From NCBI GenBank assembly GCA_903813345.2, contig CAIIXF020000001.1, positions 12,605,915 to 12,669,914 of the forward strand: a DNA stretch of 64,000 nt, in the 5' to 3' direction. The notes below the pieces were generated by a model. That model searched no databases. It was not told where the DNA came from and was given only the letters and a program-made list of their open reading frames with translations. Shown piece after piece: positions 188-39,911 of this stretch; the stretch's first letter is position 1, and every line of letters begins with the position of its first letter. The position numbers were made by a program, and so were the translations under genes. Source of the stretch: Owenia fusiformis. Its lineage: Eukaryota > Annelida > Polychaeta > Sabellida > Oweniidae.

Positions 188-3100
188 ATGAAAACAATGA
201 CTCTTTTGCTTTGTATCGGACTTATAACAATAATGGAATGTGTGATGGCATTGAACAATGGAGATGGTAGGTTTATTTTTTACATTTTGATTTTCTAAAT
301 TTAACATGAGATTTCTGATTACCATTCTAGTTGCATAGTCCTCATATCACACAACCTACGATTCATTTTTTTATTGTTTCAAATATTATATTTTATGAAA
401 GACTAATAAATATCATAATCTTAGAACCTCCATCTCCAGTCTTATAAGGTGGAGTATAGCAAATATATTTACAATGTGAAATCCTGTTTGGGTTAAAAGC
501 ATGTAAAAATGATATTACATTTTCCAAGGTTAATTCAATTCTACTAGCAGTAACTCATAACTTTTCCAGAATACAACTGTGTCCCTGGGAACTTTCATTT
601 GATCAGAAACACAGAAAACAAAAATGTCAGTAACTGCAAATCGGTTGGCTCAAATCAAGAAGAAAACTTAGATTCATGTACTAAGAGGGCCTGTGAGTGT
701 GGAGGAAATGTTATCAACTGGAAGTCGCAAGAGAATGGGTCTTATTTAGGACTATGTGATGTACGAAGGTGCTACAGAAATGATAATGGAGATGACTGGG
801 ACTTTCAGATTAGAAATGGCTCTGGTTATAAAGTCTATGCCATTCCTCGTAAGTTTTATCATTTTATCTCTAAGTAGAACATTCCTGGAAATAGACATTC
901 TATATTAATTTCATAAATATGAAGCACTACAATAATTACAACAATAACATTGAACTTTCTTTTTATTTTCCAGACCCAAACATACCTACCTGTCCAGACA
1001 GAACCAATAACAATGTAGTACATACTAAGCAGTTCATAAATAGAAGGGACATCTCAGACGGGATGTCTTCTAACTGTCTCCATCTTGCCAATAAAGATAA
1101 TTACACATTGACAAAATGCATGGACTGTGCTTGTCAAAATAAAACAGCTAATGTTATTAACTTCAGATACGAGAAAAATAATAATATTTTTCGATGCTAC
1201 TTAAAACATTGTCAAAAAAACAATATGAATGATTATAACTTTAAGTATACACCAGAATATCACGGATTTTATGTTTATGCATTATCACGTAAGTTCATCA
1301 TCAACTTTATATAATTCTTTTCGTCTAAGAAAATGAAAGGGACATTAGGAATAAATGGTATCAAGTGCAAGAAAAACATATGATCACAGAAATCTGAATT
1401 AAATGAAGTAGAATGGACTGGAATTGAAATAACTTGTGATATTTCTTCATAATGCATACACTTCTTAAATTCTTTATCTGAATTTGTATTCATGCAGTCA
1501 CCATATTAATAGGTGAATTTAAACTTTATAAAATGTTTCAACAACTAAATTCTAGTGAAACCTATTGTGAATGATGACCATGTGCCCAACACCACAGACT
1601 GTACTGCAACAACAACCATATCAACAGAAGCTATGACTTCACCGGAATATCCAACTACAAATGAACCAGAAACCAATGAACCCTCAACAAATAGTGCAAC
1701 TGAAGCAAGTACTGGTACTACAGGAGAGAGCTTGAGTTCAACATGGACAGAGTCTACTACTGCAACAAAGTCTACTCCCTCAGATATAAATTCAACTTTA
1801 ACAGGTACGGACAGCACAGTATTACAGTACAGGGTATTAACATGACACAATTTCGTAACCTTGGTACAATTTAAAAAAAAACATAATCAAACTATTTGTC
1901 ACAGGTGCAAACATTTGAGCATGGTTTTAAGAATGAATGATCAATATATTCATTATTTTAGTTATTCTAATGCGGTGTTAACATGACAAAATTCCAAAGG
2001 TATACTTTTTGTAAAAGGTGCAAACATAGTGGCTTTAACAATGAACATATAGCCACTTCTTGACTGTGGCATGAATTGATTTACTTCAATAAAATGATAA
2101 AGCCCATTCTCTTTGACATCCCTTTCAGGGATAACATCCTCTAGTGGAAGAACAACTGATCCACAACAGTCATCAACTGGTGTAGGGAGTAAGTATTCAT
2201 ATTTCACTATTTAAAGGTTTTGTTCAGCATTTTATACTGTGTGTTTCAAAGAAGAAATTGAAATTATGGCTCAACAGCATGCCAAATGAACTCAGAAGAC
2301 CATAACAGCAATGTTCCCGATATTTTTTTCTAAATTAGGAAAAATTCAAAAATTCCATTATTTTTTTACAGGGTGAGCCCAAAATATATTTATAGTTTAA
2401 GTGTAAAAATTCATTTGTTGTTAATGTAACTGTTCTCAAACTTTCAGTTTATATCATACCTTATTTGTGTTATAAAAGTTCCAAAATTAAGTGACTATGT
2501 GATACTCATCTGAATAGATATTTACATTTATATATGATTTGTGTATGTATTTTGCAGTTATAATTGCAGTTATACTGGGACTCCTTGTAATTATGATTGT
2601 CATCCTTGTTATGGTTGTCATCATCATGTACAGGTAAGTTACGATATAACATAAGACATAAATCAATATTTCAACAAAACAAACCAATACAAATGCTATA
2701 AAATACATACAAAAGGAGCCAATCAGTTAGGTTCAATGTTTTATTCAAATGGATACATCTTAAACTAATAGGAAAATCAAGTTTAGAAAAATGCCCCATA
2801 GAACTAGTCAGCAAGCTTTTGTTTTTTATTTGAGATTAAATGAAATGAATATTTTAAAATCACATTTTAACATAAAATCAACATATTTAACACATGAGTC
2901 AGAATCTGATATTTGGTATAAAGATAAGTAAACATTAATTACACCTCCAAATGTAAAAATACCAATGGGTCCCAAAGTTGCCTCCTCTAACTGACAGTAC
3001 ACAGTCAGCACAAGTAGACTGATGAGTGTACATGGGAAAGGTTAATTGCCTAAAAGATTTTGATGTTAATTCAATATCAAAATCCTCAAATTGAGAAAGC

Positions 3101-3895
3101 TAAAATCATACTTCCTTATTCATTTAATCTATGAGCAAATAGTTGACTTTTCCTCGTGTGATATGACTGTTTAACCTCAATCTTGACATTGTCAAGGGAA
3201 ACACTTTAAATTGATATACAGCAATACAAGTGTACCATTGCAGGAAACAGAAGAGGAGCCAATCAGCTACAAGTAGTGGAGGATTGGACAACAATATGAT
3301 AACTATCTCCAATGACTTATCATCAAGTGGGCCAAACACAGAACATACATACCAAAATGATCCAAGTATAATCCATAACAAAGAAGTACAGTCTGCTTCC
3401 TCTAATATGGGACTCCCAAGCTATGAGGAAGTAACTCTTGATCAATCAAATCAATACGAAAATCCAAAGAAGGCAAATTCAACAAAAACCCCAGTAAGAT
3501 TAAGTGAGCTGTATACTAAAGTTGATTTGAAGAGTAAACCAAAACATATTCAGGCCATTGATGTTGATGATCTCCCTAATGCAAATGCCATCTATCAAAA
3601 TGATGAAATGATTCAAAATTGTAGTACCTCTCAATATGAGAATCTAGCTATACCTACTAAAGGTGATCTGACAAGGGTGTCTCTAGATGCCACTCAGGCC
3701 AATGCCCCAGTGCTAGAAGATAACTCTGCTGATATAAAACAAGATGAGTACTCATTAGCATGGGAGGCAGCATCAGATGATATCAAAGTCACTGTTGGGG
3801 ACAATACAGATGAGGGTTATGATATATTAAAATTAAATAAAAATAAGAAAGAGGAACATTTTGATGATAGTTATAGCAAGGTCAAGAAGTATTAA
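188..3895 (+). CDS. Receptor A: type I membrane protein, two MANSC-like Cys-rich modules, tyrosine-rich tail
   Basis: Seven exons with consensus GT..AG borders: 188-266, 570-848, 974-1288, 1556-1804, 2129-2188, 2558-2633, 3244-3895; joined frame 569 residues. Order: signal peptide (MKTMTLLLCIGLITIMEC); Cys-rich module 1 with core SCTKRACECGGNVINW, a later CDVRRC and an end YKVYAIP; module 2 with KCMDCACQNKTANVINF, CYLKHC and YVYALS; a Thr/Ser/Pro-rich, probably O-glycosylated stalk over two exons; a TM helix (IIIAVILGLLVIMIVILVMV) followed by Arg/Lys; a tail of about 217 residues. The tail holds Y-x-N sites (YQND twice, YENP, YENL) and Y-x-x-hydrophobic sites (YEEV, YTKV, YDIL, YSKV), as expected of SH2-binding receptors. 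Introns before the TM exon are phase 1; the one after it is phase 2. The module resembles MANSC by Cys pattern (C-x3-C, N-V, C-x3-C); a PAN-like fold is the alternative. Exon structure is secure; function is inferred. Confidence 0.8.
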
Positions 3896-4657
3896 AATGA
3901 ATTATATCATTTTTGTTATCTGTAAATTGAAAGCTTCCTCAAAACGTGTATGTGTAACGCAATCGGATTGGTGTAATTATAAGTAGGTATGTAGACCAAT
4001 GATATTATAAAATATAAGCTTATATTGTGTCCCCTTGATTTTGTGATATAACATAATTCATTACGATTTATAATGTCTGGTATTATTATCACTCAGTTAA
4101 AGTAGTTGTACTTACAATTCTGAAAACATATTTTTAGTGTACCACCATGATCAACATTTTATTAGTTAATACACTATTTATCCAAACTATATTTTATTGC
4201 TGTTATTATTCATAAATGTTTATTCTTAAATACAGCATCAATCAAAATCACAATGATGCATATAACGGTGAAAAGTGAGTACAATACAAAGGCATATATG
4301 GTAGACATCCACTTGCATGGGCGTAGGACAACAGATAGTTGCAAACACACTCCATATACAAATAATTTCAAAAAATTTCCCCAGACCCCCTGAATGTCCG
4401 TTTTTTGCTTCGTTTAACTTGTGTTCTCGTTGTGACGCACTACTCATAAAAATAGCACTACGCCCATGACTTGATAACATTCAGGGAAGAGCTTAATCCA
4501 AAACTAGATAGTATGAGTTGATAAATCTCAGCTGACATTTTTAAAACTTAATTTATTAATAATACTTAAAATAAATTTCAACTGGGTTTATTTAAACACA
4601 GATTATTTGAAATACATATCCATTACAACCAACAAGGTCTAGAGTAGCTTCAGAAAA
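3896..4657. other. Intergenic region between receptor genes A and B
   Basis: This is the 3' UTR of gene A and the 5' flank of gene B. It is AT-rich with no exon-like frame. No canonical AATAAA is obvious just after the gene A stop. Open frames on the other strand here look random. Confidence 0.5.
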
Positions 4658-7600
4658 ATGGAAAGAATTGTAAAAATAGTATGTTCATTATATTTATTTC
4701 ACAAAGTGTCTCTTGCACTGATATTGTTCTCAATAAGTGTGGATTGTTCAATGCTTAATTCGGGTGAGTCAAGCAATTTATCATTTTTTCTTTCTCACTA
4801 CTTTTTTAATCTCATTGGAATTCTCTTTTAAGTTACTCTCTAATTGTGACTGATATCAATTTTACCTGATATATTCTGAGTGGTTCTATTCTTGATTTTA
4901 ATAACACACCTCATAAACATAATCTTTTTTAGACTTTACTTGCAATCCTGACAACTTTCATTTGATCAGACACATAGCAGATGACAGATACAGTGACTGT
5001 GATGAATTAGAATCAAATGATATGGACTTAGAACCATGTAAAAGAAAGGCGTGTGAGAAGCAAGGGAATGTTATCAACTGGAGACCAGGCATTCTTTCGT
5101 TATATCAATGTGAAGTTAGAAAATGTGTAAAGAATGAAAGAAATGATGACTGGAGAATTAAAATAAAAACTTCTTTGTTTAGTGGTTGGAAGATCTATAT
5201 TATTCCATGTAAGTATAAACCAAGTACTAGTACAATGCTTTACTACATTTTGTACTTGATATTATATGTTTATAACTTAAATTGGTAGTCAACAGCCCCA
5301 AATTTGTGGCATATGGTACCACAGCCCCTGTATGCACACGCTAATTACCACATAAACATTATACAAGAAAAGCAGTCCTACACACTTATTACCACATAAA
5401 CTTTTTACAGGAAAAACAGTCCTAAACACTTATTACCACATAAACTTTATACAGGAAAAACAGTTCTACACACTTAATACCGCATAAATTGTATACAGGA
5501 AAAACAGTCCTACCTTTTGTCCAAATTCAATGAAAAGTAGGACCTTTTGTAAGATTTTTGATATTCAGAATTTTCATCCAAAGATAATTGAGTTCGCAAA
5601 TTATGAAAATTGTTAAGGTTTGAATTAATTTTTTTCTCCTCTGGTACCCTTATAAGATATAGATCAAAATTAACATGAGATCTATTTTATAGATCCAAAT
5701 GCTCCTAAATGCGAAAAGTGTGAAAATTCAAAACTGCTCAAGAAACAGTTCATCAACAGGAGAAACATGATTGACAGGAAGAGATCAGACTGCCGTGATT
5801 CAGGTTTTTCAAATAGCCATAATTCAACAAGTCTGAAGCAATGTATGGTACAAGCTTGTCGTGACAATGCTAATGTATTCAACTATAGGGACCAGGAATG
5901 CCAAACAAAACGATGCAACTTTGAAAAAATTGATGGTGATTATGATCTTAAATTGGAAACTGATCCAAGAGGATTCTTGGTTTATGCTCTCACAGGTGGG
6001 TAGAATAAAAACTATACTGTACAACAAACTACATACAAATATTGATGATTTATAATTGGCAAAAAATATCCAAATATGATTAAAAATGGATATAAATTGG
6101 TACTAATTTCATTTCAGTGAACCCTCTTGTAGATAATCCTGATGCACCTACTACAATAGAAACAACAACAGGGCCTCTTACAACTCTTCAAAGCACAAAC
6201 ACAGTCACAAGAGAACCAACAACAGGGCCTCTTACAACTCTTCAAAGCACAAACACAGTCACAATAGAACCAACTGGAACTACTGTTACAAATAGAATAA
6301 AAACCACATCTCCTGAACACAGTGGAACAACATATGGTAAAACTACTACACAACCAGGTAACTGCAGTTCATAAACATTTATGCATAAACTGCAGTCATA
6401 CTCTAAAAAACTGCAGTAACTGTAATCTAATGCAGTCATGAATGGTGGTATGATTGAATAAAGTTTTCAAAATAAGATCACACTGGATTGCCATCTCAAG
6501 GGATGCTAATTGCCAATTCCAACAAGACACACAGTGATAAATATCGCACTTTGAAGAGCAAACTGACCACCATGCAATTTACCCAGCATGGCCAAAACCT
6601 AATCAGACCTTGGCACTAGTCTGCTCTTGCATCTGTAAACATTTCAAGTTGATAAGGTTAGCGGTTTTCCTGCAATTTTGATGACAAGAATTTATTTGTA
6701 GTCTTGAACTTTGGGAAGATTTAGATAACATTGTTTGTGACCTAATTTGATGACCTTCGACCTTGAAAATTTCACTTTTTCAGACCTCAGTAGGTCTTTT
6801 GTAATTAGCTGACCTAAATTTAAATCCAAAATATCAATTTAGAAAATCAAATTTTTGACCTTTTCAAGGCCACTGAAGGTCAACGAAAGGTCAAATCTGA
6901 AATCTAAGGTCAGATTTGAACTTCTGAGAACTTGTAGATGTTTTTAAAAAAAAAATTTGGTCAATTTGGAGCAATTTGAAAAATTCAAAATGGCCGCCAA
7001 ATTGAAAAATTCAAAATGGCCACCATGTAATTCAGCCAGCATACCCAAAACCTAATCAGATCTTGGTAATAGTCTGCTCTTGCATCTGTAAAAATTTCAA
7101 GTTGAACGGATAAGTGGTTTTCCTGGAATTTTGATGACAAGATTTGTTGAAAAATTCAAAATGGCCGCCACATAGTTTACCCAGCATGCCCTTTACCTAA
7201 TCAGATCTTGGTACTAGTCTGCTCTTGCATCTGTTTAAATTTCAAGTTGAACAGGTAAGCAGTTATCCTGGAAATTTGATGACAAGATTTGGTTTATGTC
7301 CCGCCCGCCCGCACGCCCAAACGCCCGCACGCCCAAACGCCCGCCCAACAGCACAAGACGACGACAATATAGCACTTTTTCAAAGTGCGATAAAAATGTT
7401 ATGCATTATGAATATGCAGAATCAATGTCTTTTCAGAGGCAGAGACAACTAGTTCTGATGCAAGTAGCACCAGTTCTTTTAATATGGCACTACCAATCAT
7501 AGTACAGGTACCATTAATATATTGTAATATAGATGACATCAATTTGAATGGAGTTCAATGTCTAAGGTATGGAATATACATCAGGATGCTATTTTTATTC

Positions 7601-8780
7601 TAAAAATTCCCTAATGATTACAACAATTAAGGAAGCAATTCTGAAATTGTAGATTTGAAAGAGCATTCTGATTGATCAGATTCCTTTATCTTAAGCTTGA
7701 GAGATATCTAGTTCTCTTCAAGTGATAGTAAAGGTAGAACCCACAATGCTGAAAAAAGAGTTTCATTGCCATTCCCTGGCCATTCGTATCATGTGTATTT
7801 TACAATTATTGCAGCAGTTGGTGTGGTATCTGGGGTGTTTGGACTAGTGATCATTATACTTCTCCTGGTCATCATCTTTATGTACAGGTCAGTATCCATA
7901 CCAAACTCAGACATTCAATATTTTCACATCCAACAATTCATTCAAAGCTTTATGATGTTCCTCACAAAGCAAGTTAATTTCCTTTCACACCATCTGGTAC
8001 ATTTATAAGTACCATAAAATAAGATAAAATTAATAACTTTCGCATCTTCACATTATGAATAAGAATGAAGAAATAAACTTACTTTGTAACAATTGCAGGA
8101 GGAACAAAGGAAGAAATGGCCCAAGTTATACAACAGAACAGATCACCAATATCTCAACCATCTCTCATGATATCCCATCAAGTGCACCTACAGTTGAGCC
8201 TGTCTACCAGAATGAAGTACATGTGTATCAAAATGAAGTAAATCAATCTGAACATGACAATATATGCAATAAGGAAGTCCCTGTAATTCCTTCTCCCACG
8301 CTTCCAACTTATGAAGAAGTAACCATGGATGATAATAAGCCAACAGAGGAAGAAATGAACCAATCCAAACCAACCACTGGTGATGTATATTCAAAGGTGG
8401 GGTTAAAGAATAAATCAGGTCAACCTAAAGACAACCGTAATGATGTCACAATTGATGGTTCCCATGTATATCAGAATGATGATATGGTACATGAAAATCA
8501 AGACAACAACAGACCCAACTTAGATATAGTATCTCCTCGATATATGAACCATGACATTATCATAGATCTACCCAAAGATGACCCAACAGCCACTGATCAG
8601 TTTCCTATGTTAGAGCTGAACTCCATTTATTCTGATAATGATGACTATTCACTGGAACATGAGATCAAACCTAATAATGAAACAAGTATAGAAATCAGAA
8701 ATGGTAATGACAAATTGAACATTACAAAAAAGAACAACTTTGAAGTGCTTGAAAATTATGGCCAGATCAAAAGATATTAA
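4658..8780 (+). CDS. Receptor B: type I membrane protein, paralogue of A
   Basis: Exons: 4658-4763 (signal peptide), 4933-5208 (Cys module 1), 5693-5995 (Cys module 2), 6118-6357 (Thr-rich stalk), TM exon 7815 or 7818 to 7887, 8099-8780 (tail); 558-559 residues. Module 1 starts DFTCNPDNFHLIR, nearly the same as gene A (NFHLIR), with CKRKACEKQGNVINW and CEVRKC. Module 2 has KQFINRR, CMVQACRDNANVFNY and CQTKRC. The TM helix is VFGLVIIILLLVIIFMYR. The tail has 11 tyrosines: YQNE twice, YQND, YMNH, TYEEV, VYSKV, DDYSLE, and an end ENYGQIKRY that parallels gene A's SYSKVKKY. Two in-frame AGs are possible for the TM exon. An extra stalk exon at 7437 (G-AG-GCA-GAG...) with a donor at 7464 would keep phase 1 and add 9 residues, but its donor is weak. 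The stalk contains an internal 54-bp duplication, and the following intron carries a transposable element. Confidence 0.78.
6165..6272 (+). repeat. In-frame 54-bp tandem duplication in the stalk of receptor B
   Basis: Two copies of a 54-bp unit (18 codons, core GPLTTLQSTNTVT) lie head to tail in the Thr-rich stalk exon. They differ by very few bases (an AGA/ATA codon difference near the unit end), so the duplication looks recent. It lengthens the mucin-like stalk without changing frame. Confidence 0.85.
6542..7392. mobile_element. TIR element of about 850 bp in receptor B intron 4
   Basis: The ends are inverted copies, TATCGCACTTTGAA and TTCAAAGTGCGATA. The interior has three degenerate copies of a roughly 130-bp block (CCTAATCAGA.CTTGG...TCTGCTCTTGCATCTGT) and stretches of GACCTT and AAAATGGCCGCC motifs, ending in a C-rich CGCCCGCACGCCC run. 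There is no transposase frame, so it is non-autonomous. Related GACCTT-rich sequence occurs near 50.45-50.8 kb. Confidence 0.6.
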
Positions 8781-8892
8781 CATATTTCAAAATATTTTAT
8801 GAGGAAATGTGACATTTGCTCAAACACTTAAGTAACTTCAAGTGGTCATTTAAAACACAAAATACAATTGTAATGTCATAATAATTAATCAT

Positions 8893-8898
8893 AATAAA
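8893..8898 (+). terminator. Candidate poly(A) signal of receptor B
   Basis: AATAAA lies 113 bases after the gene B stop codon, a normal distance for a short 3' UTR. Confidence 0.4.
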
Positions 8899-9064
8899 CT
8901 GTTTGAAAAACATAAGACTGCTAAATGTACATGTCTCTTTTTAATGTTCTATTATGACCCACTATTTTAGTCTCACCCAACAGATCGAAACAGTGGGACA
9001 AAGCTGAGCTTTGGAAAACATGATACTGTCACAGTCATATAGATGATATTATTAGGAATCAAAT

Positions 9065-12000
9065 ATGGAATTTACATATTTATTATCATTTCTGTTTTAT
9101 ATGACAGTTTATATCAAAGCTAAAGGTAAATATGAATTATTCCAGCTTCTACATCGATATACATTTGAGGTTAATCGATATTCAGTGATTGTTCATTAAA
9201 TGCCTTTTAAAAATTCATCTTGACATACAACTCTATTTAACTCAAAGATATACATCTTGGTAATAGTATTCTCAGTTTGGAGAACGAAGTTCATCAGTCT
9301 ACTGCACGTTACGCCTGCTTTGGACAATTTTGGTATTTTTACATATTGTAGATTTAAATGTCCTCTTTTGAATATCCATAATTTAATTTGGGTGATATTT
9401 CTATATTTTTCATAAAATAATTAGCACAGTACACTGATGAACTTCTTTCTCCAAATCGAAACTAGTGTTTTATTGAACCGGTCTACTGAACATTACGCCT
9501 GCTTCAAAAAATTTTGATATATTTTTACATCTTGTAGATTCAAATGTCCTCTTTTGAATATTCATAATTTAATTTGGGTGATATTTCTATATTTTTCATA
9601 AAAAATTATAGCCCAGGAGACTGTTCTCCAAACCGAGACAAGATGCATGGAGTTTACAAACAGCACATGTACATGATTAAAGGAAGAATTGATTCTAGAA
9701 ATCAAGGGTGGTATTTCAAATAACCTAATATTGTTTCTCTTTCTAGAAATTCACACTAACAATGAGGAAGAATTCCACCTTCTGAGAGCCTCTGAAGATT
9801 ATGTAACTAGTGAGTGTGACCACAAAGACAAGGTGTTTGTTAACCTCTCTCAGTGCCAACAAGAAGCCAGAGATCGAAATTGTAATGTGATCAATTGGTC
9901 CTCTAGTGATGGCAAATGTAATATAAAACACTGTACCAATCAAAGCATAGATGAAGAGTGGGACTTCAAGTTCACAAAATATACAAGTCCACTGTATGAG
10001 GTTCATAGCATAGCATGTGAGTATAAAATTAGAATCCACTGCATATATTTTTTATACAATTCGTGTATGTGATGTGTTTAAAACAATTTGTTAAGGGTGT
10101 TATTTTTGAACAATTGAAACATAAATCTCACTAATCTTATGGTAGTTTTTTAAATAGTTGTTCATATCTGGCTAAAAAACTAATTCATGAAACTGTTACA
10201 GCAGTTAAATAATTGGCTGTTTCAAATGGTTTAAATAACATTATGGTAAGAAAAACTTGCCTTTAAATACATTTGAGTATAATGTCATACTTCTAACAGA
10301 TTTCAAAATTAACGAAAATTTCTGTTTTCTCAATTCTTGTACATGGCCTCTGGGGTTAAGGCCTAATATCAAGGGAACATAATTATGTGTATGAAGAAAA
10401 TGTGTTCACTTTGAATGGACAGATACTTTATATGGATGCTTTGGACAGACTGAAAGAAAGCTTCACTACATTGAACTTCTTTGTTGGGATGAGAAAAGTG
10501 GGACTCAAAGGTTTGACTCCAAGGATAGAGGGTGCAACAAAAATAAGTACATTGGCATTAACATGCAAAATGTCACCACCTGCTATTTGTTACAAACACC
10601 ATTTGTTACAGATGCCAAACAGGATCCACTAAAAGTTGGAGAATATAACAATATGCCCCCACTTCTGGTGGACATAACAACTAATAATGATGATTTGTAC
10701 TATATACAGCACTATGATACTCATGTTACTTGCAAATTAATACTTATGTTTATGTTCAATTTTAGATCCCTCTACCCCTATATGTAAAGGCAATGTATTT
10801 GTCAATCGGAAGACATACAATGATAATAATACTTCTGTTACATCTGAATGTCCTGATGAAGGAGTACAGGAGAAACCTTTCAATCTACATCAATGCATGT
10901 CCAGTGCATGTAGTCAGGGTGCCAATGTGTTCATATACAGTTCAAGCACCCGTTTCTGCCAACCTAAGCGGTGCAACACCAAAGCTGATGGTATGTACAA
11001 CTTGCAGGTTGCAAACATTGATAATGATGATGGAAACCAGAGAGGATATGACATCTATGCTTTATCAGGTATAAAACTTTTTAGGCATTTTTATTTTGAT
11101 ATTTCAACCATCTGAAAACATTTATCATAAGGGAGTAATGCATTGAGAAATATCAGCCAGGCCTCTTTTACCCCAAAAGGACAAGTTCCCTTATGATGAT
11201 TACATTACATTGAACACATTTACTTTATCCCTGATAGCAACACCTGTGCCTTGGACCACAGAGGGAACAACCATGGGTTTTCAAGAGAATGAACCTACCA
11301 CCAGTCCAACAGAGGATATATCTAAAGCCCCACATGGATCTGATATTACATCAGGTATGTACTGTGACACCTATACTGTATGAGTGGTATCTAATCCGAG
11401 CACTTAATTTGCCAAATGGCCAATACTAACTTTTTTAGAATTTTCATTTTCCGACTCGGCAAGACTGTAAAACATACCTTATTCGCACATTGGTTATTCA
11501 TGGATTGTCCATCTTAAACTAATTAAATTCATGTCATGACAAATTCGCGTCTCGGATTGGTCCTGTATACAACATGTTATTTCATGTATAGTAACCTTGA
11601 CCCTGAACAAATAGAGAACAAGGTAAAAAGCTAATTTTGAATAAAAATCAGTTTTCAGAGATTGTTATTTCAGAACCAGTAAAATACACTACATCGGAGA
11701 TGACAATATTTTCTTCCAAAGAGCCGAACATTTCTGCCAAGATAACAAATTCACAATACACTTGGTTCGGAGACAGCAACACTGACTGTATGTATTTATT
11801 CAGACATTTATATTACTTTAAAAGAAACCCCTTCCATTCATTTACACTGCCAATTAACTTAGGGGCACTTTAATACCTTTTTGCTTTACTGAATATGGCA
11901 TTATCTTCCCTAGTATTTTTACAAGACACGATGCTTCAATACCAATCCAATGTATAGACCCTACTCATAGGTACCTTAACAGAGATTGTCTTGCACCAAA

Positions 12001-13064
12001 TATCTGGATGCCCCCCCCCCCTTATAGAGTAGAGTGGGAACACAAGGGCTTGAAGTAAAAACCAAGCCTGTAACATATATTCATATAATGACCACATAAT
12101 GTACAATGTAGTTTGCACAACACATAATTTATAATGTAGTTTATATGACTTTGTTACAGTTATATTGATAGCAGTGATTGGTGTACTTGTTCTAGTGATA
12201 ATTGTGCTGTTAGTCACCAATATTCTAGCTTGCAGGTAAAATATCAATCTAATTCCTCTTACAAAAGGGTATGATACAGCCATGTTCTCTTTAACATGTA
12301 TTTACATGTATATCCATATGACCAACAGTGCATAAAATTCATATAAACGTTATGTTACTAATTTTTTGCTCTTTGAGCACTTTAAAGTTGGTTTCAGTTG
12401 TAATCATTCAGTATGCCTCGAAACAGTATAATATTTCTTTAAAATATTTATGTAATTGTGATATGGTTCCAGGAAACTTAGAGGGAAAAATGCTGATAAT
12501 GGACATGAAAAAAGTGACAGAAATAATGTGGAAATACAGAATGATGAATATGAGGAAAATGTTGTCAAATCTGATTTAGATCAGGGAAACGTTTACTCTG
12601 ACATAAAAACTGGTTCCTCCCCTTTAAATCCAGTTATCAACCAATATGAGGAAGTGGCGATGAAAAAAATACCTGAAAATAACTCCACGTCTGAAGTAGG
12701 TAAACATGGCGAGTCACGACTCTGTGATTTATATGCTATTGTTAAACCAAAAAGTGAAAGAAAACAATATGACAGCGATAAGAATAGTATGAATGCAGAC
12801 ACAAAAATCATACCATCAGAGAGCGGAACTCTTCAGGATAAAAATGGATCAAAACCAAACAATGTTGATGCAACTAGTACAGGGGACTTCTCTTATGTAA
12901 CAGCAGATGTGGGATCTGGCTATCTACCAAAACTGGGAAACAATTCTATTTATGACTCTGAATGTGATGAAAATTATGATGTTTTGAAATTGCCGAAATC
13001 CTCTTCAAATAAAGTCCATGACAAACAAGTTTCTAGTGATTTATACAATCACTTGAAAAAATGA
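9065..13064 (+). CDS. Receptor C: type I membrane protein, divergent paralogue of A and B
   Basis: Exons: 9065-9125 (signal peptide MEFTYLLSFLFYMTVYIKAK), 9747-10016 (Cys module 1), 10766-11068 (module 2), 11238-11354 and 11674-11787 (Ser/Thr-rich stalk), 12160-12235 (TM), 12473-13064 (tail); 510 residues with all phases agreeing. Module 1 keeps FHLLR and NCNVINW plus CNIKHC but lacks the first Cys found in A and B. Module 2 has FVNRK, CMSSACSQGANVFIY and CQPKRC. The TM helix is AVIGVLVLVIIVLLVTNILA. The tail has 10 tyrosines: EYEEN, VYSDI, QYEEV, LYAIV, IYDSE, NYDVL and LYNHL near the end. The first exon is assigned from its signal peptide, phase-1 donor and position; a TIR element lies between it and module 1. 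Convergent with the metal-transporter gene at 13.5 kb. Confidence 0.75.
9270..9638. mobile_element. TIR element copy 1 (CTCGGTTTGGAGAAC family)
   Basis: Starts TCTCAGTTTGGAGAAC and ends with the inverted GTTCTCCAAACCGAGA. The body is two diverged half-units that share a block around TCCTCTTTTGAATAT.CATA. It is a second copy of the element at 56119-56506. No coding capacity; MITE-like. It sits in intron 1 of receptor C. Confidence 0.7.
10555..10680. repeat. Dispersed repeat, CATTAACATGCAAAATGTCA family
   Basis: This block in receptor C intron 2 recurs near 40704-40790 and 59693-59832, with a fragment in inverse orientation near 45525. Copies share ATGCAAAATGTCACCAC and a CCATTTGTTACAGA segment. 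The longest copy begins with GTCACCAC and ends with GTGGTGACAT, suggesting subterminal inverted repeats. Confidence 0.55.
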
Positions 13065-25576: not shown

Positions 25577-28500
25577 CTAGTGTTTGCGACTAGGGCCCCA
25601 TGAGACAGGTGGTTTGGTAGGGGCTACCTGGGACATCTCAGGGAATTCCTCATCATTATCCAGGTCGGGAGCAGCTGAGCTCCAAGGGGCTCCAGCAACA
25701 AAGTAGCCTTGCTGTTTCTGTTTGTTTGACTTGTCATCTTGCCTCTTTGGGGCAGTGTACTGCTCCATCATTATGGAATCATTGATATCTTGAAGCTGAA
25801 ATAACAAATAATAAAATTTAAAAAAAGATTATTAATGCTAGTTCCATAACATGTGTATCCATTTGAGGAATTTAATTAGGCCTAATTGATGGTCTCAAAT
25901 ATTCACATATTCAGCTTCTGATCTATACACACCAGCTAATATGATAAAATCAGATTTAAATGAATAAAGATTTTAGTGAAAACAATAAGACTCATGAATA
26001 TCTCCTAAGCAAATGATTGGATCCAATTGAGTTGTTAAATTTAAGTTTAACAAGTCAAACATACATATTCTTCCTCGAGCAGAAGCAGTTGATCTTTGCA
26101 GTCTTCCACATCATCCTCAGCTCCAGACACAACCACGATGTTCTGATCAGCTGCTGAAGCTGGAGGGAACTTGATATCTACACGATAGTCATCCATGATC
26201 TTGCGAATGTTACGTCCCTTGCCACCAATTAGACGACGGTGAACACGGCTATCAATAGACACCTCTACGGAATACATGTCCTCCTGTAAGATTATAACAT
26301 ACATGAGTAAAACAAAGAATGTGAATGAGCATAACATGTGGTGGTGACATAACATGCAAAATGGGAAAATTAGATAAATGAATTAATAATTGTTGATAAA
26401 CAATACAATGCATTTAATAAATAAGCCTACCAGATCCTTCACAATCTTCAAAATGTCAGCTTCTGCAGCTTTAGCATTCTCTTCATAGCCGGTGATGGTG
26501 ATCACTTCTTGTTTCTCGCTGCCTCTATCAGGGAACTGAATATTAACATCATTGTCCGTGCGAATCTTGTTGACAACAGCACCGCGACGTCCAATGATCT
26601 TTGGGTGATAAATTGGGTCTACCGTTACATCTAGCTGGAAACTTTTCAGTTCCTAAAATACCCAGAATGTAGATGTTTCATTATCATAGTATAACGGATA
26701 ACTTTCAGATATATATTACACATGTAAGGCCTCAACACAGCATAGGCCCAGTCATACAGTTTTGCACCAATCTTAACTCCTTTCAAGTGGTTTTTGGCCA
26801 ACATTGTCAAATGTGAAACCCCTGGAATTTTTTGAAAAGTGAACCCCTTTGGCAAAAGTGGATTACAGGCCTGCACAGTAAGTTAGTAACAACACACAAT
26901 GACAATAGCTATGCATTCTACCAAGAACACTCTATCCACACCGATTTCTCTCTCAATGTTATATTCCATTTGTACACTACACCTGGAATAATTTAACAAT
27001 AGAAGACCAATATATTAATCCAATAGTATAGAGCTCTCAAAGATTATCCGTAATCTAAATGCAGGTACAATTATTACATATACCCAATAACAATACCATT
27101 GGATTAAGGATTATGACCAGTACAGTACAAGTAGATGTTATTATAGAAATTCTAGAAACTTGACTAAGATGTGAATAAAAAGTGAGTTGGTGCAATAAGG
27201 CTGAGGCTAGAAGATGGCCATTCAAATTAGCAACATAAGTAAAATATTTGCCTCTCCAGGTATATACTTGACTACAATAATATGCTGGCAAATAATTTTT
27301 TTTTTGAAATTTGATGGAAAAACAGGATGTCTGAAAACAAGTAAAAGACATCACAGAGAAATATTCCATACTAATAGAATTGACAAAAGAAAATCAAACA
27401 TTGTCATTGAACAAGGACATCTTCCACGGCTTCTGGAGGAGACAGAACAAGGAACACCAAGAAAGACATTAGTCTTAGGAAATCATAAACCGCATCAAGC
27501 ACCAAAACTGTTGACAATTTTTACAACATTTTCTGAGCATGACAAATCAATGTTTGGAATTCAAAATAACACAATTTGCAATTTTGCACATTTTCCTGGA
27601 AAGATTACAAATCTGGTTGTGTTTGTGACTGAAAGTTTCCATCAGAATCGTCCAATCAAATGTTCACATACCTGTTTGAATGACACAATATGTGATACAG
27701 TACATCCGAAGTGGAGCATTATTCATCTTAACAAAACTCTTATGCCAAATGGCAAGAGACCAATCCTGAAATCAATGTTTCTTGAAGTACAGCGGCAGTT
27801 TAGTTCAGAGTTTTATATGTACACTAACAATGACATCTTGTTTCACACTGACAGACTGCTCAACAGTCTGAAAACCATCAGTGTGCATACAAAGACTGAG
27901 AAAATGAAGAATTACCTCATAACTGGAGGTAGAAGAAATGAGAAATTCTACGATCCAACAAAACAAGCTACAAAAATCTTAAAATCTGGCAAAGATGATG
28001 AAATAATGCAAATAAGCAGAACAGCACAAAAAATGAACGGAAATGATAAGGAATATCTTATCACAGGGAGGGACTCGTTTCCCTGGAAATCAATTCCAAA
28101 CTTTGTGATTGGTGCACCATTTTACGCAGATTGGCTGATCCTATACTGCAACAAGCTATATACTGCAACATTTGATGTGTCATACACTACAATGGCTATA
28201 CACCAAGAAGGCCAAGAGCTTGCTGATAAACACACGCAAATGACAACCAGTCTCGACAACATCAATGCTGATATCTTCAAACGCTTTGTTAAACATGAAT
28301 ATAACATAAAACAAAGTAATTTGAAATGTTGTACCTACAGAACATTGTTTAAGAAGGATTTCAGATTTTATGTACAGAAAAATCCATTGTTCATTTCAAA
28401 AAACTGTATTTTGAAAGACATGCAACTTCCTAATCCAGGTTGAAACACATGCTCAAAATGTTGAGAATAATTGTTTTTCATGTGGAGAACAATTGTTTAT

Positions 28501-31500
28501 TGTCATGCTGACAAGTGTTTTTCATGTAGAAAACTAGTGTATATTGTGTAATGTAAACATTAAATGAATATTCAGACTGAAACAAAATTAAAATGTTTTT
28601 GATCTGTCAAAAGTACATATTATATATGCACAGCTATTGTTAGTAATATTAATTTTTCGCTTCTCTCTTCTTTTGAACGCAATGAAACATTTCTCAGGTC
28701 TCAGCATTTACTTACAATACAAACAATTCACTCACAAATACACCATAAAAAAACACACACACATTACATAGAGCTTTCTTAATATTACTCACTCTGTCTT
28801 CCCTCTCCTTCTCCAGAACTTCAATCTTCTCCAAAAGAGCAGCCTTGGCTTTTTCCACAGCAGCTGGTGCGCCACTGACCTTTACTACCTCAGACTTAGC
28901 CATGGCTGGGGGGATGGATATGCTAACATCAAACTCTTCCATCATCTTGCGCACATCTCGTCCCTTCTGGCCAATGATGAATCGATGGAAGTCATATGGT
29001 ACCATCACCTCTTCAGTTACTGGGACAAGGTCCTGAAAAATTGGATCAATTTCTGATGTCAACAATTTATGGAGACCTTATTGGAATAATATATCCAAAT
29101 ATATGTGACTCATCAATGACAAACAGCATGAAACTCATAATTTATGAACTTTATCTACTTGTAAAAGTTGCATTATATTCATCCGAGATCGAACTTTAAG
29201 TCATGGGCTGGGTACACAAATATATCCCAAATCTAAATGAGAGAAATGTGAATTAACATCATATACAAGTGGTGAATGTCATATCAAGTGTTTTTGTGTA
29301 CAAGTTCTGCTGTACCTTGAGAGCTTGACTAGCTGCCTCACATTTTTCCTTCTGGCCAGTGATGAGGATAATGTCACACTTGCGTGGTGTGGCGACATCA
29401 CCTTCACTGCTGACAGAGTTAGAGTCACCGTTGACAGTTGGCTCCTCACCATCTACACTCTCAGCCGCTACATCACCTGTAAATACACATTTTAATATAT
29501 GTTTGAAATACATAATTTTTTTTGTCTTTTTTGATTAAGTTATTATCTCAAGATCGGTAAATAAAAATGGAAAAATCGATACCTGTTACATTTAAGCGAT
29601 TGCAAACAAGAATGGTTTCTCAGTTTCAAGGTCAACGCTTATTGGTTAAGGTCATCTTAAGGTCAAAGGTTTATATGTAGGTATTTGGCAGTTTAAGGCC
29701 CTCAGAACTGGAGGATTGCTAGTTTCTGTAAAATTGTGATAGAAATATTCCAAGTTTTGAGTTAAAACAAGTAACTTACCATCACCACCACCATTCTGGG
29801 CAGGGGGAGGGATAGGTCTATCAGGGAACTTGATGCCAACATCATGGTCCTTGGTGATTTGTTGCACCTTTGAGCCCTTGGCTCCCATCACTGTGCGGTG
29901 ATACTTCTGCTCAATGACACACTCAATGGTCACTTGGGAAGCCTGGAACATACAGAAAAATCAAGGTGTAAAATATAGCCTACAGTGGCATTTGAACCTG
30001 TTTGTATGAGGGATTATCTTATGTTCAATTGCCTCACTCACTCACTGACCTGGAAAGGTCAATATGAAATATAATAACTCAAATAAATTTATTAGAGGTA
30101 TCATTACCTTTATTTTATAATATAACTGGGCAAAGTAATAGTATGGGACAATAATAAAATGTCAAACCAATAGTAGCTTTTCACCTGATAAACAAATAAA
30201 GTGAATCTTACCAGATCACTCACGATCTCAAGAATGCGATCCTTTGCTCCCTCTACACAATTCTTGGCCCCCTTCAGTACGACTCTGTCACTCTTGACCC
30301 CACTACGTGGGAAGCTGACAGACACACCACCAAAGTCTTCTTCAATTTGACGCAGAACTTCACCACGACGTGCGACAAAGTGTCGATGGTATTTGCTATC
30401 AACATTGATTTCAACTTCAGCAACATTCTCCTACAAATCAGATTTATAAATTTCAATTACTAGGGATTTCATACTATTTTAAGACAACCTTTACTCAAAT
30501 ACAGATAATTAGTAGATTTCCAGAAAGGAAACATAGATTAATTCTGAAATAAAGTCATATGCAAAAATATACCTCTAATTCAAACATTTTCTAGTTCAAA
30601 TTGGTAATCATTATTTTAATTTTTTTTGTCAACATTCACCTATTACAGGGCGTTCAATAAGTATTGCTAATTTTGCTCTAACTTTTGTTCTGTTTGCTTT
30701 TTCTTCATGAAACTTTCACAACATAAGATACACATATACTTTATTCTATCAAAGTTTCAGGACAATCGAGCCAGTACTATTAAAGTTATGGTTACTCAGG
30801 TAACCAGTATCATGGATATGCGGGGCAAATTTCTGACGTCACTTTGGACGACATTTTGAGTGTTGAAAGCAGTATCATTTTATGCCGTTTAACTCTTGGG
30901 ATATGCAGTGCAGTTATAAATAATCCGTTCCAGAGTCACTTCATGATCCATATTAACTTCTGAGGTGCTCAAAACAGGCAGGTACCCTTAACAATGCCTT
31001 AACGTCAATGCACAGTTGCTGTCTGGCGACCCACTCTTGGTACACATTTTTGAAGCCACCCTTAAAGTGTGTGGTTAGGGAGGTGTTCGCTGCAGTTATC
31101 AGCTGATTGAGGTTCTGGTGCGATATTCCCCTCAGATCCCTTTTCACTGAGGCAAATACAACAAAATCAAGAGGGGCCTTATCTAAAAATATGCTACGTG
31201 GGGCAATGCTTCCACGCTAAGCTCTGTTATTGTATTTATATAGGAGAGTAGAGGATCTGTGAGCAGGGGCGTTATCCTGGTGGACCGTATATGTCGATAT
31301 TGCTCTTCGAGGATGTTGAAGTGTGGCTAGGGATGTGCAGTGTTCACTGCAGACATCCGCTGATTGAGATTCTAGACTCTAGTGCAATATTCCTCTCAAA
31401 TCTCTTTTCACCGCTGTTAGATAATACATATAATTCAACTGACAACATCAAGATTTGACCATATCAACTGTTTTTATTCATCAAAGTGTTTATTTGATGT

Positions 31501-34500
31501 ATAACAATAATTCATTATGTAAACCCTTAAGGTTGCCCCACGTATCCTTAACAATGGTTACCCTAGTAACCATAACTTTGTCAATTCTAAGTCGGTTGTC
31601 CAGAAATTTGGATAGAATAAGGTCAGATATGTGTTGCTTATGTTGTAAAAGTTTCATGGAGAAATATGCAACATTACAAAAGTTATAACAAAATTAGCAA
31701 TACTTATTGAACGCCATACAAGCCACAAAACATGTTAATTTACACATGATGCAAAAATAACTGATTACTCTTACCAGTTGCTTGATAAGGGTTTCGAGTT
31801 GAGCTTTTGCTGCTGCAACTTGGTCTTCCTTCCCGATGATGACAATGGTTTCCTTATCTGGATCATCATTTGAAGGGAAAACTACCCGAGCTCCTGTATT
31901 GTCCCGAACCTTTCTGATGTTGACTCCACCTCGACCAATCAGGAACTTGTGGAAATTTGGCTCCGCTTTCACCTCAGCACTGTGGCTTGACTCTTTCTGT
32001 AAATCAAATAACAGTTCTTTTACTCAGCAGGAAAATGAGGGAAAAATAAATCATGAATTGTAACAATAAGAGGACTGAATTCCAGTTTATATTACCCTTT
32101 GTGCTGAACTCACTAAATTACTCTTAAATTTCACCACTCAAATCAACAGCAATTTTGTCTCATGTTTAAATAAGTTAATGTACAGTCAGCATAAGCAAAC
32201 TGCAAAATGATTGATCCAAGTTAGAGGATAGTGTAATACTGTAGGTGTTTACACCAAAATTGGACATTGTTAACTAGATAACGGCAACTCCGCGGAGTAG
32301 CAAATCCCAACGAACAAAATATCAATTACCGAATTCCAATCAATTATACTCATTACTTTGGTTAAAATTGAAAAAATTAGATTTTAGAATTGTGAATTCC
32401 TGCAAAGCAGCCATTTTGAATTTTATGAGGTACAAATCTGAAAAATAATACCATAATTGTGATCTACTCCAAAATTCCTTCAATTTGAGTATAATAAAGC
32501 CATACTTTGAAGGGATCGAAAAATTATTGCAAAATCGTAGATTAGACGGCCATTTTGAATCTTACGAGGCTCAAATAAGAAAAAAGATACAATATTTGCA
32601 ATCTACTCTTAATTGCCTTTCATTTGAGTATAATAAAGCTATACTTCAGAAAGATCTAAAAATTAGCGAAAATTTCTGTTTTCCTGTCCCCCCCACACGG
32701 TCCCTGGGGGTCAGGATGAAAAACACGGAATATATGTGAAATAGATGAATGTTCTGAATATACTACCAAAATTTCAAACAATAATATTAATTACTTTGGT
32801 TTAGAATGAAAAATTTATGATTTTTGCGAAAAAGTCCCGTCATTTTTAAAGTGGCAGCCATCTTGAAAAAAACTAGTATTTGAGTTATCTTCCGGACAGA
32901 CGGACGGACTGACTGACTGACTGACGGATGGACGGCTTCACTATATCCCTACCGAACTTCGTTCGTTGGGATAATTACCTTATCAGCAGCTCTTTCCTCC
33001 AGTTCAACTCTTGCTCTCTCTACATCCTCAATGGGGCCCCGGATCACCACCTTGTCACTGCTTGATCCCTCTGGTGGAAACCTAATGATGACACCACCGC
33101 ATTCCTGGGCTATGGCACGAATCAGATGACCCTTAGCACCAATGATGGTGTTGTGGAACTTGTGAGGAATCTCTATAGTAAGCTCTTTGATGTTGGCCTA
33201 GAAAATTAGTATTAAAATACATGTATTCAATGATAAAAATCTATTAGATCCTTTATTGGGATTTTGTTGCTGATAACCTCACTACAAAATGATAAACTTA
33301 CAAAGTGCTGTTATAATTTGTACATGTGAATCAAAAGTATGACATTAAATTTACTTACCAATTCTTTTTGAATTGCTTCAATTTTGACCTTTGCAGCATC
33401 AACATTAGCTTTTTTACCCGTAATAACGATGACATCACTATCGCTGTTTTCACTTGGCAGATCAATACGCGTGTCAGTGTCATCACGTATGCGCCTGATG
33501 TTAGCTCCACCTTTCCCAATGACATTTTTGTGGAATTGCTTGAATATGTGAACTTCAGACTGGTAGTTTACAGCAATCTAAAATATGAATGTCAACATGA
33601 TTTAGAGAAATGTTACAAGGGATCCTACTCTGTGTAATGTAATTTAGCAATGGCTCACAAATTCATTTTCAATTTTTCAACTATAACTCTGATATATATC
33701 AAAAAAGTGAACCGCATTTTGACAACTATTTTCTCAACAATATTTATAGCACTTTTTAATGATACTCTATAGTTCCTCAACAAAAATTTTCGAACAATTG
33801 CCCTTGCCTATTGCTGAGAAAATACTCAAATTAAAAATTGGGTTTGCCTACTTTGCACACTGCATGTCAGGGAGTTTGACATGTAAGTACCTGTTTAGAA
33901 GCTTATAGATATGTCAAGAGAGAACATACCATATTGTACTGATTTCTTACCAATTCTTGCTGGAGGTTTTGCATATACTTGGCACACTTTTCAACATCTG
34001 TTTTGGGCCCTAGAAGAGTGACAACATCAGTTTTCTTGCCAGGTTCAGGGAACTTCACTTGTACTTGGTTGAATTTATCACGAATCTCTTTGATTTTATC
34101 ACCCTTAGCCCCGATTATATTTTTATGGAAGCGCTGTTCAATCAGAATGTCCTTGGTACGTTCATTCTCCTACAAAAAAGGCAATGCATAAACATTAAGT
34201 AGGGCATGTCCTATGAAAAGTTCAGAGTCAGATTTTCATTTATATTAATTTAGACTAACTAGCAACTCTGAGGTGGTACGATACGAAACGAGTTCAAACT
34301 TTTCACACCATTAAAACAAAACAAAGCTGCAAAAATGATTTCTTTTGTGTGTGCAAATAAATCAATCAATTCACGAGGGTATAGTAATTATAGCCTCTCA
34401 AAACAGCCAAAAGGCAATGGAAATTGTGGGTGAAGTAAACTTGGATGTAAAAAGTGCATGAACTCACCATTCTCTGGACCATTTCCAGTAGTTTATCCTT

Positions 34501-37500
34501 AGCTTGTTTCACACCACTCGGGTCCCCCTCGATACGGATAACCTTGCTGTTCTCCGTGTCAGATGGGATCCGGATGGACACACCTGTTTCATTTTTGATT
34601 TGCCCAACTGAAAACACAACGCAATGTTCTTAGTTTTTGGTCAGACTTAAACCTCATAAATTTAGTCAGTCCCCAATCTAGGATAATGTTGGTAAGTACA
34701 AAATACTAATTTTTGTATAGACAGGTTCTTTATGTCCACACTCAAACTTTGTTTGGTGAAACTGACATTAATAGATAGAAGAAGGGTTAAATTCTTCATT
34801 GTTCTAACCCAAGCAGTTGTAAGAAACAAGATTTTCCAAAAGGACAGGCGAAATCCTCTACATTATAAAAATTGGAAAACAATATAAATAAATATACTTA
34901 CCATTGGCACCTCCTTTACCAATGATGTGGCGATGGTATTTCTGGTCGATTTCAATCTCGGCAAAGTCCATTCGTGTCAACTACAATTACAACAATCACA
35001 TTTCAATAAATTGAAACATGTAGAAGTAAACACATATATAAAGTAATATGAAACATACCCTTAATAATGATTGAAAATTGCATTACATTATTGGACAAAA
35101 AGAGCCTCGGGTATTTTACTTATATAATAGTTTACGCTCATTAAATTAAGAAGGCGTATTGAAAACTGACATAATCTCAATCAAAAAGTGATGTTCAAAC
35201 AGAGGTGACAGCAATGTATTTGTACAATAACTAGTAACAAAACATACATTCAACTTACAGGGCAAAGTACAAAGAGGGATACACATTATGTCAGATGCAA
35301 TTTTCAATTTCATATCATAACTTTTATACTGCTTTATTTTCTTCATCAAATGAAAATAAACTGATTATTCAGAGTATAAAATGGGAAAAATGTGCGACAT
35401 TATATAACCCTTTATTTTGCATTTTGACGAACTATCGTTTGCATTAGAGGAATGTGCATTCATATCAACTCTACCTCAGCCATGATTGCAAAAAGACCGG
35501 AAATGTAACCATTCTTATCTCACTAGGGCACAAATGAAACCACACTCTATTAGGAATCTTATCAGTACAGATCACATATGGTAACTTCACATTTAGAATT
35601 CATTTTATAACACGTGAACGACATTATTGGCCACCATAATATTAATTAAAAGTTAACAATTAAAAGTTTGCCAATGACCGACTTCATCAGATTACTAGAA
35701 TATTTATATATACTTTTTCAAAAAGATTGATATTTATTTATTTATTTTTATATTAAAAAATTCCCAGATTTTTCTTTTGTAATTAGTGTGTATATCATCG
35801 CTTTTTAACTTCATTATGATTCAATTACCTTAAATGAACATATCAAAATTATATCGTATGGTGACATATCAACCAGCTATCAGCCAATCAAAATGGAGGA
35901 TTTCAACAAGGCGTGTAATAATCATACATACTAGGTCTTTTGTAATCTCCTCCAATGCTTTCCTTGCCTCTTCAACCTGCTCAGGTGGACCCTCTACAAT
36001 AATCTTGGCATCACCCTCAGTGAACTCAATATGCACCTAAAACATAAGTGGCATTGTGTATCAACTCAATGTCTGTGTGTATTGTGTCAAGGAAATAACT
36101 TATCTATGATATTTAGAAAGGTGAAACCATTTCAACAGTCATGGAGGATTTCAAGCTGGCTACCAATGTGTTGATAGCCAGACAGCAAGAAAAGTGGGAG
36201 ATGATAAAATCACACATAGTTAGGCAAGGTGTGTCTGATTCCAGCCAATCCGAACACAGTATTTCACATGACAGCAGTGCATAAAATAATCAATTATGCA
36301 CTCAAGGTCACTAGTAAACAGTTGCCATGGTGATAAATGGACTTTTCAGATTCGATTTGATGACTTGCCAACTTGACACTTGCAAAAAATTCCATTACAA
36401 ATGTGTTCTTTTGGTGATTTTGTTCATATTAAATGATTTTGTTGAAAATATTTTGCAATTTGTGAAAATAATTTAAGCCTAAGACGCAATGCATTGTAGC
36501 TGCTTCATTCCGCTCAGGCGTTCTTTCCCAAACTTTGCATTCCCGCTGCGCGATCATGCAAAGATTTGGAAACAACACCTTCATGGTATGATTCAGCAAA
36601 CAATGCACTGAGTCCAGGGCTTAAATCCTTAAACCATGTGAGCTAATAATAAAAAGGACCAATCTTGAATAACAACCATTTTTATTAATTGAAAATTTTC
36701 AAAGTGATTAATATAATATGCTCAATTTGCATATTATTGCTACAACAAATTAACTCATTAATTAACAAATTAACAATTCACACATGTTCTTCTCTCATTA
36801 TTGATGATTAAGTCCATACCTTGGGAAGATCTGCAGTGATCTTGTTAACAGTGGCTCCCTTACGTCCAATGATGAATCTATGAAGCCAGGCAGGTGCATC
36901 AACCTCAGCAATAACGATGCTGTTGGCCTTAATTAAAATAGTTCTAGATCATCAACTGTGCAATATTATGACACATCTCAGATCAATAATGAAACAAAAT
37001 ACAATGTCGTTATTAAGTATACTGTATTATACTTAATTTTAATTCAGAGACGCTTTAAATACCAAGTGTAAAATTTTTTTATAAAAATTTAATCTGTGAA
37101 AGTGGAAAGATCGGTGGAAATATCTGACCCACCAATTTTTTTAAAGTGACTTGCAAACTTCCAAAAAATGATGCCAAACAGAAATACTAAGAATCTAGAA
37201 TGTAAAAGGTAAAGCACAAGCAAAACTATTTAGCCAATCAGGAATATATTTGACATATATAGTATAATGTACCTTTGAATAGACCAGGGTGAGTGCTGGT
37301 CCCAGTTTGTCCTGCTCTCCCCTCAGTGTGATTGTATTGGAGTTGCTCTCTGGTGGAGGGACCTCCACACTCACTCCAGTAGCTGCAAGAATCTCAGAGA
37401 GATTGGTACCACGGGGTCCAATCACATACTTATGCTGTGATTTGCGCACCTCTACTGATACAGGCTGGCATAGGCGTTTCTACAAAACAGGACCATTAAA

Positions 37501-39871: not shown

Positions 39872-39911
39872 AGTCGGGTTTCAGTTCCGAGTCGTACAGT
39901 ACTGGTATTTC

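Follow-up and report, generated by a model that had tools for sequence, protein, structure and literature searches.

A tandem family of candidate kinase-less receptors with paired PAN/apple-like modules in the annelid Owenia fusiformis

Here we describe three tandem genes in a 64,000-nucleotide stretch of the genome of the annelid Owenia fusiformis (GenBank assembly GCA_903813345.2, contig CAIIXF020000001.1, positions 12,605,915 to 12,669,914, forward strand), which as a whole we refer to as the window. Genes A (188–3895), B (4658–8780) and C (9065–13064), all on the plus strand, have a common plan in which a predicted signal peptide is followed by two cysteine-rich modules, a Thr/Ser-rich stalk, a transmembrane helix and a long tyrosine-rich tail. 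The gene structure, the architecture, the relatedness of the parts and the conservation of tail motifs are apparent in the DNA, and the modules are predicted to adopt a PAN/apple-type fold. We favour, with moderate confidence, the interpretation that the cluster encodes a tandem family of single-pass, kinase-less surface receptors with SH2-docking tails.

Gene structure

Gene models were rebuilt from splice sites in the window DNA. Each gene has seven exons in the same order (a signal-peptide exon, two cysteine modules of one exon each, the stalk, a transmembrane exon and a one-exon tail) with intron phases of 1, 1, 1, 1, 1 and 2, and the spliced products of 569 (A), 567 (B) and 510 (C) amino acids are open throughout, with no internal stop. 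This agreement bears out an earlier note on the same DNA, which had proposed three genes with one shared plan, and we consider the tandem receptor gene family confirmed on sequence grounds.

It could be argued that the models, built from genomic DNA, are artefacts, with some joins wrong or one gene a pseudogene: 14 of the 18 donors match 7 or more of the 9 consensus bases but 4 match fewer, and several acceptors do not stand out in consensus scoring. The poorest donor, that of the 27-nucleotide exon 5 of gene B, matches 5 of 9 bases, a score that 49% of GTs equal or better; skipping this exon keeps the reading frame, and its status as a real exon is uncertain. Against an artefact, the three genes agree in exon order and intron phase and contain no internal stops, and we give this explanation very little credence.

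Signal peptides are predicted in all three proteins solely from N-terminal hydropathy (1.89, 1.96 and 0.77 in A, B and C). Threonine and serine make up 44%, 41% and 33% of the stalks of A, B and C. The stalk exon of B contains an in-frame tandem duplication of 18 residues that is probably recent, as the copies are 96% identical, and stalk length may vary between individuals. Over the stalk and transmembrane helix there is weak Pfam resemblance to TMEM154 (E = 1.3e-5 in A, 2.3e-4 in C) and SIT (E = 0.45 in A, 0.011 in C), all below the curated cutoffs; these matches are probably compositional, because the matched part consists of low-complexity stalk, transmembrane helix and juxtamembrane sequence. 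A three-protein profile gave 15 matches to the Protein Data Bank (PDB), and we set these aside: those with E < 1 fall in the stalk and transmembrane helix, the best being sodium channel beta-4 (E = 9.3e-4).

As the first exon of gene A lies close to the edge of the window (position 188), the cluster may run on upstream. Profile searches were run against the 1,466 stop-to-stop open reading frames of at least 25 amino acids in the window, among which module and tail profiles found no convincing further copy of the family. A minus-strand frame at 6606–6779 (E = 0.0083–0.22) overlaps a repeat in an intron of gene B and was taken as a chance match. A 145-nucleotide repeat present three times at 6549–7291, in an intron of gene B (other copies 81% and 87% like the reference), is perhaps part of a mobile element. 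The introns also hold a 44-bp tandem unit in four copies (5336–5513, between the two module exons of B) and a pair of 84-nucleotide repeats that are 96% alike (9334–9603, first intron of C).

Relatedness of the cysteine modules

Profiles built with one gene left out recovered modules 1 and 2 of the omitted gene (A, E = 1.2e-21 and 5.6e-15; B, 4.5e-20 and 9.3e-21; C, 1.8e-14 and 1.5e-11), and the next-best frame had an E value of 0.0083. Profiles of module 1 found module 2 in all three genes (E = 1.8e-10, 4.5e-10 and 2.5e-6) and profiles of module 2 found module 1 in all three (E = 8.6e-13, 7.5e-11 and 4e-10), reciprocal matches that uphold the earlier proposal that the two modules of each gene are related. 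The cysteine pattern given in the earlier note is only partly retained: C-x3-A-C is present in five of six modules (it is missing from C module 1) and N-V-[IF]-[NI]-[WFY] in all six, but C-x3-C occurs in none, the real spacing being C-x4-C in all six, and the ending [YV]-x-[VI]-Y-A-[LI] is found in two ([YFW]-x-[VI]-Y-A-[LI] in four), with a complete fit in no module.

A tree of all six modules groups the module 1 sequences together (support 0.98). Identity between corresponding modules is 44% (A1–B1), 40% (A2–B2), 39% (B2–C2), 30% (A1–C1 and A2–C2) and 27% (B1–C1), and between module 1 and module 2 it is 24–27% within a gene and 19–31% between genes. The tree and this pattern of identity suggest that module doubling probably came first and gene copying later, with the caveat that module 1 of C is almost as distant from those of A and B as module 1 is from module 2. 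Whether module 1, module 2 (by a narrow margin) or the tail is compared, A and B come out nearest to each other.

The fast divergence proposed earlier for the ectodomain is not confined to it: non-synonymous divergence (dN) is 0.50–0.76 for the modules and 0.71–0.95 for the tails. Synonymous divergence (dS) could not be corrected in four of the six module pairs and is 1.05–2.81 in the remaining two and the three tail pairs; because dS is too high, we make no claim of positive selection.

Predicted fold of the modules

The modules read as members of the PAN/apple superfamily that lean towards the MANEC subclass, and not as strict MANSC members; MANEC has been described as a subclass of PAN (PMC12940448). 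This reading is based on predictions for two of the six modules, from AlphaFold (AF2) models built with the six aligned sequences. The models of A module 2 and B module 1 have predicted local distance difference test (pLDDT) values of 79.5 and 78.3 and predicted template-modelling (pTM) scores of 0.73 and 0.71; the five models of each vary widely (41–80 and 57–78).

Foldseek comparison with the PDB, for which the best 50 of 84 matches were considered for each model, placed the MANEC structure of HAI-1 (2MSX) first for B module 1 (probability 0.99, template-modelling (TM) scores 0.65/0.54, E = 0.15), followed by factor XI, prekallikrein and thyroglobulin. For A module 2, the order was factor XI (probability 0.99, TM score 0.51), SML-2 lectin and HAI-1 (5H7V, 0.77; 2MSX, 0.72, in sixth place), with plasminogen, thyroglobulin, prekallikrein and plant SRK lower among the best 50 of 84. 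The structural comparison with MANSC and PAN suggested in the earlier note returned, for the two modules modelled, top matches that were mostly PAN/apple proteins, including HAI-1 MANEC, with no E value below 0.1 among the best 50 of 84.

The Pfam MANEC model (PF07502) matched one of the six modules, A module 2 (E = 0.0025, 18.5 bits), short of the gathering score of 25.5. It was not listed at E = 10 for the other five modules or for full-length A, B and C, in searches in which HMMER filters drop most matches above about 0.1. PAN_1 matched C module 1 only (E = 0.032, 14.5 bits; gathering score 21.4), and no PAN model of Pfam was listed for the other five. Unrelated families gave weaker matches to A module 2 (E = 0.029 and 0.081) and matches to A module 1 and C module 2 (E = 0.06–0.18). 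When A module 2 was shuffled with its cysteines fixed, none of ten shuffles matched MANEC or PAN at E = 1, and four matched other families (best E = 0.11).

The MANEC domain of HAI-1 has eight cysteines in four disulfides, and its distinctive bonds tether the N terminus to a helix (PMC12940448); the founding MANSC paper, as cited in PMC6134521, has seven cysteines in its title. None of our modules has eight cysteines and three have seven. Strict MANEC membership fails because the modules have five to seven cysteines rather than eight. The MANSC resemblance proposed earlier survives as a distant one, visible in the best structural match of B module 1 and the Pfam match of A module 2; strict membership does not, given the cysteine counts and the score below cutoff. 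In C module 1 neither the first cysteine nor that of the A-C pair is present, a joint loss that hints that the two bond each other as in MANEC, although another cysteine close by clouds this reading.

Several results weigh against the fold assignment. No Foldseek match among the best 50 of 84 has an E value below 0.1 for either model, the model of A module 2 superposes badly on HAI-1 (root mean square deviation 6.9 for 2MSX, and 7.3), and thyroglobulin appears near the top for both models (rank 10 for A module 2; ranks 4, 6 and 9 for B module 1). Family consensus sequences reached neither MANEC nor PAN in Pfam, and a module profile had a single match among PDB sequences, TgMIC4, at E = 0.16. 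Separate searches of PDB sequences with single modules, tried for two of the six, gave unrelated matches at E = 0.21 or worse and were discarded.

Cytoplasmic tails

The tail exons, counted as the last exon only, encode 216 (A), 226 (B) and 196 (C) residues with 10, 11 and 10 tyrosines, in line with the long tails of 10–11 tyrosines described earlier. Tail profiles with one gene left out find the omitted tail (A, E = 2.8e-16; B, 9.3e-14; C, 7.1e-5), and tail identity is 30% (A–B), 25% (A–C) and 21% (B–C). Three tyrosines are invariant across the genes in six of six MAFFT alignments, and the residue at +3 is V, I or L in every case; in A, B and C the sites read YEEV/YEEV/YEEV, YTKV/YSKV/YAIV and YSKV/YGQI/YNHL. 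Compared with shuffled tails, A (8 of 10, P = 0.0014) and B (7 of 11, P = 0.02) have an excess of tyrosines in YxN or Yxx[ILVM], with no significant excess in C (5 of 10, P = 0.09); the motif P values given here are not corrected for how many motifs were tried. YxN sites number four in both A (P = 0.006) and B (P = 0.04), and Yxx[ILVM] sites number five in both A (P = 0.019) and C (P = 0.017). The earlier claim of putative phosphotyrosine signalling finds support at the level of motif conservation, in the three invariant Yxx[V/I/L] sites.

The chief rival explanation reads the same sites as AP-2 sorting signals (Yxx followed by a bulky hydrophobic residue) of endocytic or scavenger receptors that internalize their ligand, in the manner of the MANEC protein KIAA0319L, a trafficking receptor for adeno-associated virus. 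The V, I or L at +3 of all three invariant tyrosines also suits such a signal, and the Thr/Ser-rich stalk and the matches to the PAN lectin SML-2 suit a capture receptor. However, 10–11 tyrosines, together with the YxN sites in A and B, are more than sorting requires, and the acidic +1 and +2 residues of YEEV are atypical of AP-2 signals. YEEV resembles pYEEI, the preferred ligand of Src-family SH2 domains, and YxN is the Grb2-type SH2 site. Because of these two kinds of site we prefer SH2 docking and regard the endocytic explanation as unlikely.

Alternatively, the proteins may be adhesive or structural epithelial glycoproteins in which function resides in the stalk and modules, with a disordered tail and with most of the tail tyrosines neutral. 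The low tail identity (just 21–30%), a tail dN equal to or above that of most module pairs and the 7 of 10 tyrosines of A that are not invariant are consistent with this. Retention of three Yxx[VIL] sites within an otherwise drifting tail and the excess of motifs in A and B relative to shuffled tails argue against it, and we judge it rather improbable.

SH2 docking itself faces contrary evidence from the tails. C has no YxN site, and B has three Yxx[ILVM] sites, which is no excess (P = 0.38). Retention of tyrosines relative to other tail residues is borderline (3 of 10 versus 17–19 of 206 or 18 of 207; P = 0.054–0.069), and acidic residues are not enriched upstream of tail tyrosines (P = 0.43–0.80). 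The strict immunoreceptor tyrosine-based activation motif (ITAM; Yxx[LI]-x6-12-Yxx[LI]) is absent from all three tails, and its loose form occurs once in A and once in C (P = 0.11 in each) and not in B. The strict inhibitory counterpart (ITIM; [STILV]xYxx[ILV]) occurs 1, 0 and 0 times in A, B and C, against shuffle means of 0.59, 0.63 and 0.56, and the count in A is at chance (P = 0.46).

Other features of the window

GC content is 32–37% in 4-kb steps, and no RNA families or tRNAs were found in the window. A minus-strand series of exon-sized open frames at 25577–39880 is KH-like (KH_1 E = 3.2e-15 for 28715–29077, others judged by eye) and probably represents a vigilin-like gene with multiple KH domains next to the cluster. 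Between its exon-sized frames, on the plus strand, lies a single open frame of 410 codons (27211–28443) that matches nothing in Pfam at E = 0.01 or in the PDB at E = 1. A minus-strand frame of 625 codons (59924–61801) has no Pfam match at E = 0.01 and, near its start, weak PDB matches to C2-domain proteins (E = 0.45 and 0.66). Two 15-bp minisatellites about 4.4 kb apart (42129–42280, 10 copies; 46658–46852, 13 copies) share one unit in inverted orientation, as judged from their consensus units by eye, and a 75-bp tandem unit is repeated 12 times with 93% matches at 48893–49789, where periods of 221 and 296 were also found.

Table 1 Exons of the three receptor-like genes, with predicted content
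Gene	Exon	Positions	Strand	Content	Basis
A	1	188–266	+	start and signal peptide	spliced model, donor phase 1
A	2	570–848	+	Cys module 1, 7 Cys	spliced model, alignment, profiles
A	3	974–1288	+	Cys module 2, 7 Cys	spliced model, AlphaFold model, sub-cutoff Pfam match to MANEC (E 0.0025)
A	4	1556–1804	+	Thr/Ser-rich stalk	spliced model, composition
A	5	2129–2188	+	stalk	spliced model, composition
A	6	2558–2633	+	transmembrane helix	mean hydropathy 3.67
A	7	3244–3895	+	cytoplasmic tail, 10 Tyr, 4 YxN	spliced model, motif counts
B	1	4658–4763	+	start and signal peptide	spliced model
B	2	4933–5208	+	Cys module 1, 6 Cys	spliced model; AlphaFold model matches HAI-1 MANEC best
B	3	5693–5995	+	Cys module 2, 7 Cys	spliced model, profiles
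B	4	6118–6357	+	stalk, 54-nt internal tandem duplication 6153–6260	spliced model, composition
B	5	7437–7463	+	short stalk exon, uncertain; weak donor, skipping possible	spliced model
B	6	7818–7887	+	transmembrane helix	mean hydropathy 3.18
B	7	8099–8780	+	cytoplasmic tail, 11 Tyr, 4 YxN	spliced model, motif counts
C	1	9065–9125	+	start and signal peptide, lowest hydropathy of the three	spliced model
C	2	9747–10016	+	Cys module 1, 5 Cys, without first Cys and Cys of A-C pair	spliced model, alignment, profiles
C	3	10766–11068	+	Cys module 2, 6 Cys	spliced model, profiles
C	4	11238–11354	+	stalk	spliced model, composition
C	5	11674–11787	+	stalk	spliced model, composition
C	6	12160–12235	+	transmembrane helix	mean hydropathy 3.26
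C	7	12473–13064	+	cytoplasmic tail, 10 Tyr, no YxN	spliced model, motif counts

Discussion

If the cluster encodes kinase-less receptors, the two MANEC-like PAN/apple modules, spaced from the membrane by the Thr/Ser-rich stalk, would bind a protein or carbohydrate ligand; PAN/apple domains have been reported to bind both (PMC7588048). Receptor clustering would lead to phosphorylation of the tails by a cytoplasmic kinase, probably of the Src family, and the phosphotyrosines would dock SH2 proteins at the three Yxx[V/I/L] sites in all receptors and additionally at YxN sites in A and B only. Such receptors would work in the manner of the CD5/CD6 class, each carrying a docking scaffold within its own tail, unlike a strict ITAM or ITIM receptor. 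Recognition, whether of non-self, of self or in cell adhesion, would be the likeliest use, and an immune role is a possibility.

LRP11, KIAA0319L and MANSC1 are MANSC/MANEC proteins, the last with a mucin stalk and a single transmembrane helix as well. HAI-1 (PMC12940448) and KIAA0319 (PMC5905272) have been placed in the same group. A, B and C resemble these proteins in a predicted PAN-like fold with extra cysteines; unlike them, they have two modules rather than one, fewer than eight cysteines and a long tyrosine-rich tail, Pfam lists no Kunitz or PKD domain, and the MANEC cutoff is missed. Factor XI, prekallikrein, plasminogen, TgMIC4, SML-2 lectin and plant SRK all hold PAN/apple modules, several of them repeated, and are alike in predicted fold, whereas sequence similarity is near nil (PAN_1 in C module 1 only) and a transmembrane helix and signalling-type tail are found here. 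CD5 and CD6 have SRCR domains and kinase-less tails whose tyrosines nucleate SH2 complexes; they share with A, B and C a disulfide-rich tandem ectodomain, a stalk, one transmembrane helix and a long tyrosine-rich tail. This likeness is functional, drawn here from motifs, and we claim no homology; the ectodomains are SRCR in one case and PAN in the other.

Mollusc PAN/Apple proteins, including a 1-IgSF FREP of Biomphalaria, occur in a defence-linked gene family (PMC7588048). This FREP resembles A, B and C in having a PAN/Apple domain within an invertebrate gene family, and differs in that the domain is joined to fibrinogen and Ig domains; a tyrosine-rich tail is not mentioned in the covered part of that source (PMC7588048). 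The architecture was undescribed in the titles and abstract openings covered, a weak negative from open-access literature in which large result sets were sampled in small part.

A more far-reaching reading, which is doubtful and which we offer tentatively, is that the cluster represents an invertebrate recognition family, lineage-specific and expanding in tandem, whose receptors have paired MANEC-like PAN modules instead of an Ig, SRCR or lectin ectodomain and in which C differs in output. The Grb2-type sites of A and B and their absence from C would then place receptors of differing outputs in one cluster.

The cluster is compact and directly testable by expression, binding and phosphorylation assays. 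If the receptor interpretation is correct, a PAN/MANEC-type ectodomain would join the folds known to be coupled to phosphotyrosine tails in recognition receptors of animals, and the MANEC subclass, the binding partners of which are still open, would gain a signalling receptor.

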